This document shows positions 42,243 to 49,389 of a stretch of DNA of 64,000 bases, one piece after another. Position 1 is the stretch's first letter, and each line of letters begins with the position of its first letter. Source of the DNA: Candidatus Poribacteria bacterium. GTDB lineage: Bacteria; Poribacteria; WGA-4E; PCPOR2b. A program made the position numbers and the translations under genes. The notes beneath the pieces are model-generated. The model had not been told where the DNA came from and ran no database searches. It saw only the letters and a list, made by a program, of their open reading frames with translations. The DNA is taken from contig JAJECO010000050.1 of the NCBI GenBank assembly GCA_022822005.1, forward strand, positions 1 to 64,000. Reading direction: 5' to 3'.

Positions 42243-42923
42243 TCATGTCCTCCCAGCTGCCATTAACAGATCTGGACGATTCGAGCCGATGGCGTCAACT
42301 CCCAGATCGATGACACGCTGTATCTCCTCAACAGTGTCGGGATTCCATGCGCGGATCTTGAGCCCGTGTGCATGTGCTTTCTCGACAAGTTGAGAGTCAA
42401 TGTTAAGATGTTGGATATGTATCGCCTCCGCCCCCATATCGATTGCCTGTTCACACGCATCGGGTGGCGGATCCGCCCACAAGGCTCCTAACCTCAAGTT
42501 CGGGTTAAGCTGACGCGCTTCCCGAAGCCGGTCATGGACAAATGAAGTAAGAAGTACCTCGTTTTCCATGCTGTTTCTGTCAACGGTTTCGATGACCGGT
42601 TCAGCGGTGTCGGGACCTTTCAGTTCAATCTGAAGAATCACTTTCCCGCGCACTAAGTCTATTACCTCCTGTAGTGTCGGAATGCGTTCTCCCTTGCCCG
42701 CATCCAACTGCTTCGCTTCTGCCAAAGTGAAGTCAGCGACTGCCCCTTCGCCATCTGTTGTCCGATCTACTGTGGTATCGTGGATAACCACCAAGTGTTG
42801 ATCGCGTGTTAGGTGCACATCGATCTCAATCTGATCAACACCGAGGTCTATCGCTTTCTGCATGGATAGCAGTGTGTTTTCCGGTTCAAGTTTTGCTGCA
42901 CCTCTATGTCCAGTTAGTATCAT
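42243..42923 (-). CDS. Glycerophosphodiester phosphodiesterase
   Basis: A 226-residue protein from ATG 42923 (AAAGGA upstream), 13 nt after the stop of the peroxiredoxin gene, so cotranscribed with it. Catalytic signature GHRGAAKLEPENT, then EIDVHLTRDQHLVVIHD with metal-binding Glu/Asp and catalytic His. It hydrolyses glycerophosphodiesters to glycerol-3-phosphate and an alcohol. No signal peptide, so cytoplasmic. A second GDPD lies at 59849. Confidence 0.92.
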   Translation of the reverse strand: MILTGHRGAAKLEPENTLLSMQKAIDLGVDQIEIDVHLTRDQHLVVIHDTTVDRTTDGEGAVADFTLAEAKQLDAGKGERIPTLQEVIDLVRGKVILQIELKGPDTAEPVIETVDRNSMENEVLLTSFVHDRLREARQLNPNLRLGALWADPPPDACEQAIDMGAEAIHIQHLNIDSQLVEKAHAHGLKIRAWNPDTVEEIQRVIDLGVDAIGSNRPDLLMAAGRT

Positions 42924-42936
42924 TCCGATCCTTTCT

Positions 42937-43434
42937 TCAGTTGGTGGTAGCTTCAAGCCTTTTCAGGGCTGCGACGATGTCCGTATGCTTAGCAAGATCA
43001 AGCTGATGTGAGCCAACATACATGAATTGGATAATTAAGTTCTTATCGATCACGAATGTCGCGGGCCGAGCGATGTTGTACGCATCAAAACCTAACCAAT
43101 GGTACACTCCGTAGCTTTTAATCACCTCCCGGTCCTTATCTGTGAGCAATGGAAAGGTAATATCATGGGTTTCAGCATACCGACGCACTTCACGGGGCCA
43201 TTGACCAACGATGCTAAGGACAGCAGCCCCTAATTCTGTGTATTCATCGCTGGCGTGCTGAAGGTCTCCTAACTGGCGACGGCTGTTCGGTCACCAAGTT
43301 CCTCTGAAGAAGGCGAGGATAACGGGCTGTCGACCGAGATAGGACTCTAAAGCTACGGTTTGACGCTGAACAGAGGGTAATGTGAATAACGGCGCCTTAT
43401 CACCGATGTTGAGAATCTTGTTTTTTCGTGGCAT
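42937..43434 (-). CDS. Peroxiredoxin, predicted selenoprotein (in-frame UGA = Sec48)
   Basis: One continuous 165-residue frame if the TGA at 43291-43293 is read as selenocysteine. Before it lies KAPLFTLP...AFFRGTW; after it PNSRRQLGDLQ...VLSIVGQWP...ITFPLLTDKD...PATFVIDKNLIIQFMYVG, the complete AhpC/TSA fold. Codon 48 falls exactly where the family has its peroxidatic Cys (RGxWCPxC), and the second Cys of CxxC is Ser here, giving U-x-x-S. There is no frameshift and no other stop. TGA is an ordinary stop elsewhere in the window, so code change is excluded. The start ATG 43434 has only a weak ribosome site. Alternative: a nonsense mutation or sequencing error. Confidence 0.78.
43246..43280 (-). 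promoter_or_regulatory. Possible bacterial SECIS hairpin
   Basis: Starting 11 nt after the UGA, GUCGC (43280-43276) can pair with GCGAU (43250-43246), enclosing a small AGG / CCU stem with loop AGA (G in the loop) about 23 nt from the UGA, within the usual range for bacterial SECIS. Folding by eye only. An alternative stem, GGUGAC / GUCGCC, includes the UGA itself. Confidence 0.3.
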
Positions 43435-43456
43435 AATATATCTTACTTCATAAAAC

Positions 43457-43580
43457 GGTAGGCGGGTCATCCCCGATAAATCCCCGATGAATCGGGACTC
43501 CGACAAGCCGAGAGCAGGCAGGCGGGATTCAAAGCAACTTGCCCCGCCCTTACGTGCCAAAAACTCGATTTCTGTTGCAC
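43457..43580. mobile_element. Family C remnant with CCCGATTCATCGGGG module
   Basis: Read on the minus strand it begins GTGCAACAGAAATCGAG, close to the end of the 20763 copy, and contains the CCGATAAATCCCCGATGA module and a GGCGGGATTCAAAGCAAC stretch nearly identical to 53593-53622. It lies just upstream of the peroxiredoxin start. Confidence 0.5.
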
Positions 43581-43606: not shown

Positions 43607-44806
43607 TCAAGGATTTAATTCTTGACGAATCCGCTCCGCAAGGGTTTCGGTATTGCCATCGGTCAAATGTAGTGGATTAATCAGGAGTTTACCCTCTCTG
43701 AGACCGCCGTGGCTGACATAAATCGGTGGCACACCATTTCGAAGACTTTGGCAGATCTCCATCGCTCCTCGACCGACTGCCGCCTCATTAATTGCGATCT
43801 CTAACAGTGGGAGGCTTTCACCATCCCCTTTATCACGCATACTGCATGTTACTGGAGAGTTTTTTAGCGTATCTACTATCCTATCGAGCCGGGCATGTGC
43901 TTTCGATACCTCTTCATCATAAGCTCCAGAGGTGAAAAGCTGTAACGCCACAAGCAACGCGATAATCTCCTCTTTTGACACCTTAAAACCGCGTCCTATA
44001 CCGTGGCGTGGGATGCCACAGAGCGTTGTTTTATCGATGAGCGATGCCGGTGGATTCCAAAGTTCTAAGTGATCGTCCATATCCAACAACTGTGCGACTG
44101 CAGCGCCTATCAGGTCTCGACGACCGCAGAGAATCCCGGTGGATTGAGGACCCCGAATGGATTTCCCCCCGCTGAACGCTACCAGATCTGCACCTGTCGC
44201 AGCAATCGATTTAAGGTTGCTACGCGGGGGAAGTTCACCTGCTGCATCCACCAATACAGGAAGTTGATGCCGATGTGCGACATCGACAAGTTCTTCAAGC
44301 GGAGGTCTGGAGGTCGGGCTATACACATAAAGGACGCCTGCGGTGTTCGGTCCAAAAGCCGCTTTATACTCCCACGCTTCAGTGCGCCGGACCCCTGCAT
44401 TTGCAACGATCTCGTTGAAACCGACCTCAACCAACCGCGCGCCAGCGGCTCGGACAGCGTGATCATAACCGCTTCGCTGCTCGCGAGCAACGACGAACTC
44501 GTTAGGAAATCCGTCACAGTGTGGCAACCGCTCCATCCGCCCCAAGTCATAGCCTGTCAAGATTGCAGCGGTTCCCAAGGTCAGGGCAGATGCAGCACCG
44601 GCGGAGACCAAACCGGCTTCCGTGCCCGTTGCCTCCGAGATAACTTTGGAGGCAGCTGCCTGAAGTTGTTCAAGCGGCACCGACGCACGGGCAGCTTCGT
44701 TAAACGCGTTCAGCACCGCATCGGGCATCGGTGCACCGCCGAGGCGGGTCACCGCTCCGGAGGCGTTGATAATCGGGGTTACTCCAAATTGTTCGTAAAT
44801 TCCCAT
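43607..44806 (-). CDS. SelA-like PLP-dependent enzyme
   Basis: A 399-residue fold-type I PLP protein from ATG 44806 (TTG 44827 possible). It opens TPIINASGAVTRLGG and carries the PLP Lys in FSGGKSIRGPQSTGIL, the pattern of SelA and of SelA-like enzymes such as D-glucosaminate-6-phosphate ammonia-lyase. The N-terminal tRNA-binding domain and the HTNLGR motif of true selenocysteine synthase are missing, so an ammonia-lyase or aldolase-type role is more likely. It lies next to the predicted selenoprotein, probably by chance. Cytoplasmic. Confidence 0.82.
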   Translation of the reverse strand: MGIYEQFGVTPIINASGAVTRLGGAPMPDAVLNAFNEAARASVPLEQLQAAASKVISEATGTEAGLVSAGAASALTLGTAAILTGYDLGRMERLPHCDGFPNEFVVAREQRSGYDHAVRAAGARLVEVGFNEIVANAGVRRTEAWEYKAAFGPNTAGVLYVYSPTSRPPLEELVDVAHRHQLPVLVDAAGELPPRSNLKSIAATGADLVAFSGGKSIRGPQSTGILCGRRDLIGAAVAQLLDMDDHLELWNPPASLIDKTTLCGIPRHGIGRGFKVSKEEIIALLVALQLFTSGAYDEEVSKAHARLDRIVDTLKNSPVTCSMRDKGDGESLPLLEIAINEAAVGRGAMEICQSLRNGVPPIYVSHGGLREGKLLINPLHLTDGNTETLAERIRQELNP

Positions 44807-44841
44807 AGATATTTCCAATCCTATCAATTACTAAGGCTAAT

Positions 44842-46559: not shown

Positions 46560-46988
46560 TGCTGTTATTTCCCTTCAGATTCGTGCGTGGCATATCTATG
46601 TTTCGTTTCAGTACCTTCCCCCTGTATGCCTACGCGTTACCATCTTGTATTTCTCGTACATCTTTGCGCCTCGATTTTTCGAGGATGATAGGCGATGATA
46701 AGTAAATAATCAAGGAAAAAGTAAGAGATTTGACTGCTAGTCAATCTGGTGAACATGATTATTGGAATCGAATCATCGAAGCGAGTTTTCAGCTCCTATG
46801 TATATTTTTTGTTAAAGATTTTGCATGATAGTTAGCAACTAACTTCAACAGAAGGAACATATCCCACGATAACAACCTTGACGTTCAAACTCTGGGAGGA
46901 TTTTTCTCTGTTTGGAATTTCACACGGTCAGAGGTATGAGATAGAGAGAAAATTATTGGTGGGAAAACTCCACAGAAAGGAAAAAACA
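46560..46988. other. Gap upstream of the lipoprotein array
   Basis: No gene is seen apart from the unlikely upstream extension of the first array gene. There is a short hairpin CTCGA / TCGAG near 46670 and a palindrome AGTTAG-CAA-CTAACT near 46830, which may be a regulator site. No promoter can be assigned with confidence. Confidence 0.5.
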
Positions 46989-47918
46989 GTGCACAGAATG
47001 TTAAGAGCTACCATTTTAATCACTTATGGGCTGTTTATCATCTGTATAACCAACGGTTGCTCCGATGATGATCCAATTGAGACTGGTGAGATTAGGCTGC
47101 TATCCACCGTGCCTGAAGATGGAGGGATAGTTTCACCAACTGGAGAACTCACGATAATCTTCGATGGTTTTCCCAAATCCGTTTATGTGAATGGAAAATT
47201 GGCTTTAATCCAAGACAGCACTGCTATTGTGAAAGTTGCCGATTTGCCTAACCTAATTCCCGGCACTGATAACACGATCACCATTGAATGGAGAAATCAG
47301 GAGAATTTCCTTGCCGGATCTGAAACGATTACCGTCACTGTCTTAAAGCCTGTAACAGTCGTGGTAGATCCGGCATCACGCACCATCGCATATTTCAACC
47401 GTGGAGTGGAACTGAAATTACAGTTTAGTGATGAAGTTATGTCGGTGGAGGTCAATGGTAGATCGGCGACGGGCTCGGGGCTTGATTGGAGGGTGGATTC
47501 CGACCATGTGCCGTATGGGAAGGCAGAATTCTTGACTATCGAGTGGATAAACCGAGACGGTTCAAAGGGCTATAGCACAGTTGGTCCTTATGCAGTTGTA
47601 TATAATAGTGGGGAGCCTCCTGTAATTACAAGTGGTACAGTGTGGCATGGGGACGTAGATGTCGACCCTGCTTTAATCAATGCTGGGGGTCTCCGATATG
47701 ACTTCGACGAACCCATCACAGGCACCATTAAGCTGACTGATGAAGCGGGTGTTGATCTCAACTGGATTGGAAACGTGGTGGGGCAAACAGCAACGCTGAC
47801 CGCAGTTGCAGGACAGGAAATGGTCAACGAGACGACCTACAAGATTGAAATTGATGTCAAAGATGGTGCTGGCAATAAAACTCAAGCGACGATTAATTTC
47901 GTCACCAAGCCCAAGTGA
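46989..47918 (+). CDS. Ig-like (Big_5) lipoprotein, array copy 1
   Basis: A 309-residue lipoprotein. GTG 46989 is chosen because it aligns with the ATG-His-Arg start of the paralogs and has AAAGGA upstream; the longer frame from 46878 is not conserved. The lipobox is ITNGC, followed by Asp-rich residues. It has three beta domains: an extra N-terminal Ig-like unit, then the ATGSGLDW/WINRDGS domain shared by all copies, then a C-terminal SbsA Big_5-like domain ending FVTKPK. Longest of five copies. Probably a surface-exposed adhesive protein. Confidence 0.82.
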   Translation: MHRMLRATILITYGLFIICITNGCSDDDPIETGEIRLLSTVPEDGGIVSPTGELTIIFDGFPKSVYVNGKLALIQDSTAIVKVADLPNLIPGTDNTITIEWRNQENFLAGSETITVTVLKPVTVVVDPASRTIAYFNRGVELKLQFSDEVMSVEVNGRSATGSGLDWRVDSDHVPYGKAEFLTIEWINRDGSKGYSTVGPYAVVYNSGEPPVITSGTVWHGDVDVDPALINAGGLRYDFDEPITGTIKLTDEAGVDLNWIGNVVGQTATLTAVAGQEMVNETTYKIEIDVKDGAGNKTQATINFVTKPK

Positions 47919-47947
47919 TATATCCTCTTTAAGAAAGGACTAAAACG

Positions 47948-48673
47948 ATGCAAAAATTTTTAGGAGCGGGCATTCTAATCACATTTGGGCTGCTCATTAT
48001 CTGTATAATCAGCGGTTGTGCCGATGATGCTCCTACTGAGGATGTTGTGGCTCTTCCACCATTAGAGGAGGCTGATGTTGATCATGATCATTCTGTACCG
48101 AGAGCGCATACGGTCAAGGTGCATCCAGATCCAGATCCCTGCCTTCGTGTTTTTCCAGATACAGAATTCACGTTGAGCTTTGATGAAGGTATCACGGCTG
48201 TGATGGTCAATGATACACCCGCTACAGGTGCAGGACGCAATTGGATGGTGATGCCGGGTTTAGAGGTGGGAACAGCATGGCTAAATATCGAGTGGTTCAA
48301 CCGGGACGCCACCCGTCGCGCTACAACGATTGGCCCCTATGTAGTTGTGGCAGGTCCGGATGCGCTAGAATCTCCCGCAATTACGCATGGTACAGTGAGA
48401 AATGGGGAGGCCGATGTCAACCCTGCACCAATCAATGCAAGTGGTTTGCTGTTTTTTTTCGACGAACCCGTCATAGGAGCCATCAAGCTGACTGACGAGG
48501 CGTGTGCTGACCTCAACTGGACTGGAACCGTCGATGATCGGACAGCAGCACTCACTCCGGTTGCAGGACAGGAACTTGCCAATAACACAGTCTACAAGGT
48601 TGAAATTGATGTCCAAGATGGCGGAGGTAATCGATTTAGAGCAACAATTACTTTCGTTACCAAACCCAAGTGA
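47948..48673 (+). CDS. Ig-like (Big_5) lipoprotein, array copy 2
   Basis: A 241-residue lipoprotein with lipobox ISGC. A short linker with acidic/His runs precedes two domains: the middle VNDTPATGAGRNW domain and the C-terminal Big_5-like domain (DVNPAPINASG...FVTKPK). The 3' half is almost identical to copy 3. Spaced 29 nt from copy 1 by the repeated TATCCTCTTTAAGAAAGGA spacer that carries the ribosome site. Confidence 0.85.
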   Translation: MQKFLGAGILITFGLLIICIISGCADDAPTEDVVALPPLEEADVDHDHSVPRAHTVKVHPDPDPCLRVFPDTEFTLSFDEGITAVMVNDTPATGAGRNWMVMPGLEVGTAWLNIEWFNRDATRRATTIGPYVVVAGPDALESPAITHGTVRNGEADVNPAPINASGLLFFFDEPVIGAIKLTDEACADLNWTGTVDDRTAALTPVAGQELANNTVYKVEIDVQDGGGNRFRATITFVTKPK

Positions 48674-48702
48674 TATATCCTGTTTAAGAAAGGACTAAAA
48701 CA

Positions 48703-49389
48703 ATGCACAGACTTTTAAGGGCAGGCATTCTAATCACGTTTGGGATGTTTATTATTTGTATAATCAGCGGTTGTGCCGATGATGTTCCCACTAAGGATGT
48801 TGATCATGCTGATTCTATACCGAGAGCGCATACGGTCAAGGTGTATCCAGGTATCTGCCTTCCTGTTTTTCCACATACACAATTCGTGTTGGACCTTTAT
48901 GTTGGTGTAGCGGCGGTCAACGTCAATAATATACCCGCTACCGGTGCAGGACGCTATTGGATGGTGATGCCGGGTTTAGAGGTGGGAACAGCACAGCTAA
49001 ATATCGAGTGGATAAACCGTGACGGCTCCCGTGGTGCTACAACGATTGGGCCCTATGTAGTGCTGGCAGGTCCGGATGCGCTAGAATCTCCCGCAATTAC
49101 GCATGGTACAGTGAGAAATGGGGAGGCCGATGTCAACCCTGCACCAATCAATGCAAGCGGTTTGCTGTTTGTTTTCAACGAACCCGTCACAGGAGCCATC
49201 AAGCTGACTGACGAGGCGTGTGCTGACCTCAACTGGACTGGAACCGTCGATGATCAGACAGCAGCACTCACTCCGGTTGCAGGACAGGAACTTGCCAATA
49301 ACACAGTCTACAAGGTTGAAATTGATGTCCAAGATGGCGGAGGTAATCGATTTAGAGCAACAATTACTTTCGTTACCAAACCCGAGTGA
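48703..49389 (+). CDS. Ig-like (Big_5) lipoprotein, array copy 3
   Basis: A 228-residue lipoprotein with lipobox ISGC and the same two-domain layout. The last roughly 320 nt are almost identical to copy 2, while the middle part differs, consistent with recent duplication or gene conversion. Ribosome site AAGAAAGGA is in the shared spacer. Confidence 0.85.
   Translation: MHRLLRAGILITFGMFIICIISGCADDVPTKDVDHADSIPRAHTVKVYPGICLPVFPHTQFVLDLYVGVAAVNVNNIPATGAGRYWMVMPGLEVGTAQLNIEWINRDGSRGATTIGPYVVLAGPDALESPAITHGTVRNGEADVNPAPINASGLLFVFNEPVTGAIKLTDEACADLNWTGTVDDQTAALTPVAGQELANNTVYKVEIDVQDGGGNRFRATITFVTKPE

Follow-up and report, generated by a model that had tools for sequence, protein, structure and literature searches.

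A predicted selenoprotein with a UxxS site in a peroxiredoxin scaffold from Candidatus Poribacteria

The gene and its product

The window, by which we mean the whole 64,000-nt stretch of poribacterial DNA analysed here, carries on its minus strand (43434–42937) a gene of 165 codons that starts with ATG at 43434–43432, ends with a terminal TGA at 42939–42937 and, when translated with TGA as selenocysteine (Sec), contains exactly one internal stop, the TGA of codon 48 (43291–43293). The surrounding sequence reads FFRGTW*PNSRRQL, the asterisk marking the TGA, and is followed by 117 sense codons up to the terminal TGA. The amino-terminal sequence MPRKNKIL is invariant in 31 sequences, supporting the assigned gene start. 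In Pfam, the read-through protein matches PF00578 (AhpC-TSA) with 105.2 bits, against a gathering cut-off of 26, over residues 10–137. This match runs across the TGA, bearing out the original prediction that the open codons downstream continue the fold; its position, frame and family for the locus were likewise right, and together with the orthologues define one conserved gene with a peroxiredoxin fold. The window protein contains no cysteine.

A model of the protein obtained with AlphaFold2 from a 31-sequence alignment, in which Cys stands in for Sec, has a pLDDT of 83.6 and a pTM of 0.84. Residue 48 is placed in it just before the active-site helix (residues 49–67). In a Foldseek search the top ranks went to the Sulfolobus proteins Bcp4 and Bcp1 and to Mycobacterium tuberculosis AhpE, closely followed by ResA-type thiol-disulfide oxidoreductases.

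Conservation of the in-frame TGA

What is known of the phylum Poribacteria comes mainly from symbionts of sponges. GTDB, scanned with a single genome for each species, gave 45 loci, every one from Candidatus Poribacteria. Forty-four are orthologues, each with TGA at codon 48 within RGTW*PNSRRQL; the remaining locus, L061, is a paralogue that reads RGGW*PFC. In a phylum-wide search of 85 Poribacteria genomes, in which a score above 150 bits defined an orthologue, the gene was present in 67, and nearly every member of the phylum's main order has it. One internal TGA is found in 66 of the 67 orthologue-bearing genomes; the codon itself was read in the fetched loci, where it was always codon 48. 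The remaining orthologue (L073, on contig C2 of genome G027) has no internal TGA and is otherwise normal, with TGT, encoding Cys, at codon 48 (FFRGTWCPNSRRQL). Since its genus-mate, G026, and the other families have TGA, the simplest reading of these sequences is a single Sec-to-Cys change in G027. This orthologue (L073 601–1083) retains a hairpin following codon 48 (−11.0 kcal/mol), and the change looks as if it were recent.

The UGA position is matched by Cys in a second homologue, from Rhizobium (L096), which lies outside the phylum and has WCPYC together with the Pro discussed below. The alignment of homologues suggested with the original prediction thus revealed an exchange of Sec and Cys at codon 48, and neither a conserved stop nor a frameshift.

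No conserved operon was found around the orthologues: the window gene has neighbours in common with L017–L019 only, and a GDPD neighbour in common with L017, L018 and L075. Comparison of the window (42262–43470) with L017 gave a pS of 0.06 over the first 47 codons and of 0.56 over codons 61–155, so that silent differences are few before and many after, and recombination inside the gene is probable from this pattern.

Selenocysteine machinery of the genome

The genome to which the window belongs (6.0 Mb, 97.8% complete) carries selA, selB, selC and selD. selB (369 bits, over its cut-off) lies on contig C78, with selA directly upstream (602 bits, over its cut-off) and the tRNA-Sec gene selC directly adjoining it (76 bits; identified by ARAGORN as tRNA-SeC with anticodon TCA), and selD is found on contig C66 (370 bits, over its cut-off). 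The original prediction had noted the lack of these genes in the window, which indeed holds no tRNA gene at all, and had pointed to the same genome as the place to look for selB, selC and selD; all three, plus selA, are there, on other contigs. The selD match (L062, C66:75130–76050) holds one in-frame TGA; its product, too, is probably a selenoprotein, a case known from other bacteria.

Across the phylum, selB exceeded its cut-off in 76 of the 85 genomes, among them 55 of the 56 genomes with a completeness of 90% or more and a contamination of 5% or less. Co-occurrence of selB and the orthologue across the 85 genomes gave a p value of 0.09, in a test without power because selB is present in 76 of them. 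Five orthologue-bearing genomes had no selB match, and the completeness of all five is at most 83%.

A neighbouring gene in the window (43607–44827, minus strand) encodes a SelA-like PLP enzyme, which was considered as selA and rejected, its score of 52.9 bits lying below the cut-off of 267.9. It was likewise rejected as a dedicated Sec synthase, as its product is DgaE-like, falls below all cut-offs and is a neighbour of the gene only in L017–L019. The DgaE ammonia lyase family lies nearer to this product, whose score there is nevertheless 181 bits against a cut-off of 385.

Decoding of UGA-48

On this evidence we read the gene as encoding a selenoprotein with a UxxS site, with a probability of about 0.93; the original call of a selenoprotein is upheld by selA, selB, selC and selD in the genome and by the Sec/Cys exchange at codon 48. 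As the comparative evidence suggests, SelB would decode UGA-48 by delivering the Sec-tRNA(Sec) that SelA and SelD help to make, probably aided by a short hairpin just downstream.

The frame would also be open if UGA were reassigned, or generally read through as Trp, Gly or Cys without Sec machinery, but TGA terminates 18 of 47 orthologues, as it does the window gene, so the code is not reassigned; with the machinery present in the genome and Cys at codon 48 in G027, we regard such a reading as very improbable. A lone in-frame stop would ordinarily point to a pseudogene or a base error, here a disabling mutation or artefact in an ordinary peroxiredoxin gene. With the identical TGA in 66 separate assemblies, a recurrence that chance does not account for, a base error is untenable, however, and pN/pS is 0.205 over codons 1–47 and 0.228 over codons 49–155 (1176 pairs from 49 distinct sequences), so that constraint after the TGA equals that before it; with full purifying selection downstream, this explanation is refuted for practical purposes. 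Equally little credit is due to termination at codon 48 with a second start further on, giving two separate fragments: a GTG-started frame of 83 codons does follow the TGA (43188–42937), but the invariant residues PNSRRQL and GQWPRE, within codons 49–82, lie before and at this start, and the fold predicted for the protein depends on both parts, including the active-site helix.

A candidate SECIS element

Downstream of the TGA, the window's best local hairpin is GUC-G-CC(AGUUA)GG-A-GAC (43280–43264, minus strand; loop 43274–43270), which lies 16 nt past the UGA and has a stem of 5 bp interrupted by one mismatch. Its folding energy, −4.9 kcal/mol, is no better than that of shuffled sequences; the original prediction had seen a weak SECIS-like hairpin by eye. 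The published bSECIS model specifies a loop of 3–9 nt with a G in its first two positions, a stem of 4–16 bp, a start 16–37 nt after the UGA and a minimum free energy of at most −7.5 (PMC13188914). The spacing, loop size and loop G of the window hairpin fit this model, whereas its energy misses the limit; those of some orthologues, among them L025 (−16.8) and L017 (−10.9), pass it.

RNAalifold gave no consensus SECIS over all orthologues. Applied clade by clade, it returned weak hairpins in differing registers around the same AGUU loop, with a best z score of −3.6 in one f4 subset and of about 0 in the window's own family. When codons were shuffled, the orthologues folded somewhat better than their shuffles (mean p = 0.21) and the window sequence did not (p = 0.56).

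Codons 51–55 (AGC CGT CGC CAG TTA; 43270–43284), which form the candidate SECIS core, show reduced silent-site variation. Ser51 is always AGY, Gln54 always CAG and Leu55 always TTR (49 of 49 sequences in each case), whereas elsewhere in the same genes Gln is encoded by CAG and CAA in a ratio of 141 to 139, and Leu and Ser use all six of their codons. The mean relative codon entropy is 0.45 over codons 49–58 and 0.80 elsewhere, with a p value of 0.004 that is only indicative, as the sequences are related by descent. This constraint on silent sites supports a SECIS element in codons 51–55 and is stronger evidence for it than the hairpin energy.

Several sister Prx-like genes with an internal UGA, from this and other poribacterial genomes, have clean hairpins of 6–7 bp that lie 21 nt downstream of the TGA and are capped by G[G/U]N loops; one pair shows an A-U to G-C exchange. 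These canonical hairpins indicate that the Sec system is in use in the phylum; beside them, that of the present gene seems either weaker or divergent. The genome of the window itself holds four more Prx-like matches with one TGA each: L087 (C39:33614–34078), L088 (C19:116607–117071), L089 (C51:191716–192147) and L090 (C51:192178–192483). The first of these, on C39, encodes FDRGEF*PSC, and its SECIS-like hairpin is canonical, with 7 bp and a GGC loop.

Active site

The family profile aligns with M. tuberculosis AhpE without gaps over the active site. Counted along this alignment, Arg44, Sec48, Ser51 and Pro124 are equivalent to Pro38, Thr42, Cys45 and Arg116 of AhpE, of which we take Cys45 to be the peroxidatic residue and Pro38, Thr42 and Arg116 to be catalytic. 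The TGA had been thought to fall exactly at the peroxidatic cysteine; it lies three residues away, and that place is occupied by Ser51 (AGC, 43282–43284), which also takes the second position of the CxxC-like motif and gives the UxxS that had been proposed. The four residues do not vary within the family, apart from the Cys at U48 in G027, so that the canonical peroxiredoxin set of Pro, Thr/Ser, peroxidatic Cys/Sec and Arg is missing, P-T-C-R being replaced by R-U-S-P. The name peroxiredoxin therefore holds for the fold and the sequence family but not for the active site, in which the other catalytic residues have been replaced too.

Thioredoxin-fold proteins have been divided into a Cxxc class, comprising glutathione peroxidases (with Thr) and monothiol glutaredoxins and some ArsC proteins (with Ser), and a cxxC class, comprising peroxiredoxins, which also exchange the cis-Pro for Arg (PMC2757866). 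As judged from the alignment, Sec48 occupies the N-terminal redox position of thioredoxin, glutathione peroxidase and monothiol glutaredoxin, creating a UxxS site in a peroxiredoxin scaffold, and Pro124 (43063–43065), found where AhpE has its catalytic Arg116, corresponds to the thioredoxin-type cis-Pro. On both counts, motif and Pro124, the family is of the Cxxc kind. Other homologues from outside the phylum (L094, L095, L097 and L098, from haloarchaea, Bosea and Azospirillum) have DWSPVC with Arg. The only recurring Cys of the family, at position 156, is present in 24 of 49 sequences, and hence there is no conserved internal resolving thiol.

Relation to known selenoproteins

Reviews list PrxU (TxxU), Prx-like proteins with UxxC or UxxU in PF00578 and a UGC Prx-like protein. 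One AhpC/TSA selenoprotein family with UxxS is listed as well, assigned to pfam13911/cd02970 and with a reference from an Olavius symbiont (PMC9312934, PMC13188914). Given these families, the present protein is a variation on an established type of selenoprotein.

With the Prx-like thiol:disulfide oxidoreductase selenoproteins (UxxC/UxxU; 'Prx-like 1' of GOS) it shares PF00578, Sec at the first CxxC-like position and bacterial UGA decoding, and it differs from them in having Ser at the second position and, in one GTDB scan, orthologues only in Poribacteria. The listed UxxS family (record MDX2448127.1) has the motif and the AhpC/TSA type in common with the present protein, which by profile search matches PF00578 but, at an E value of 0.001, not PF13911. 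PrxU (NF040737) also has Sec in a peroxiredoxin fold, but at the peroxidatic position, which lies three residues downstream, and the present protein scores 33 bits against the PrxU cut-off of 270; for the SelL-related redox protein NF040769, the score is 56 bits, below the cut-off of 120. AhpE, a 1-Cys peroxiredoxin, and Bcp1 and Bcp4 are the closest solved folds and likewise have a single redox residue, although P38-T42-C45-R116 of AhpE has become R44-U48-S51-P124. Glutathione peroxidase (UxxT) resembles the present protein in having Sec or Cys first and a hydroxyl residue second, the Cxxc arrangement, whereas the present protein has no match to PF00255 at an E value of 0.001. The catalytic residues of glutathione peroxidase include Gln, Trp and Asn; Gln78 and Trp79 are invariant in the present family.

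In the open-access library searched, no paper naming a selenoprotein from Poribacteria was found; co-occurrence of selA and selB has been reported in sponge symbiont bins, with no selenoprotein. The present gene, selD and the four further UGA-containing Prx-like genes of a single genome provide concrete products for this pattern. Standard gene calling would split such genes in two at the UGA.

Proposed function

The predicted product has 165 residues in an AhpE-like peroxiredoxin fold, and its only redox residue would be Sec48, located where the active-site helix begins. We lean towards a peroxide reductase that works with one Sec and depends on thiols: its nearest relatives, by sequence as by fold, are thiol peroxidases, and peroxide chemistry is where Sec mostly brings an advantage. 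Sec48 would attack a hydroperoxide to form a selenenic acid, which an external thiol would resolve, with a second thiol restoring the selenol. As the protein lacks the canonical peroxiredoxin residues, its activity as a peroxide reductase is not assured.

The main functional rival, which we consider a serious though less probable candidate, is a selenoprotein that reduces disulfides or mixed disulfides in the manner of thioredoxin or glutaredoxin. UxxS and Pro124 are thioredoxin-type features, ResA-type oxidoreductases are close in fold, and reviews name the UxxC relatives Prx-like thiol:disulfide oxidoreductases; against this, thiol peroxidases are the best matches both by sequence and by fold, and the motif lacks a second Cys, the window protein having no Cys at all. 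The UxxS site and the natural Cys orthologue make the effect of moving or swapping the redox residue in a peroxiredoxin scaffold testable.

More tentatively, the family may represent a selenoenzyme class specific to Poribacteria, in which a peroxiredoxin scaffold devoid of the four canonical catalytic residues carries a lone Sec at the glutathione peroxidase/thioredoxin position. Its UGA might be decoded through a non-canonical SECIS, with a conserved CAGUUR element and an AGUU loop, by the same SelB that reads the ordinary G[G/U]N-loop hairpins of the sister genes.

Elsewhere in the window, the plus strand holds three similar tandem open reading frames (46878–49389) for lipoprotein-like products with Ig-like repeats, apparently the result of a recent gene multiplication.
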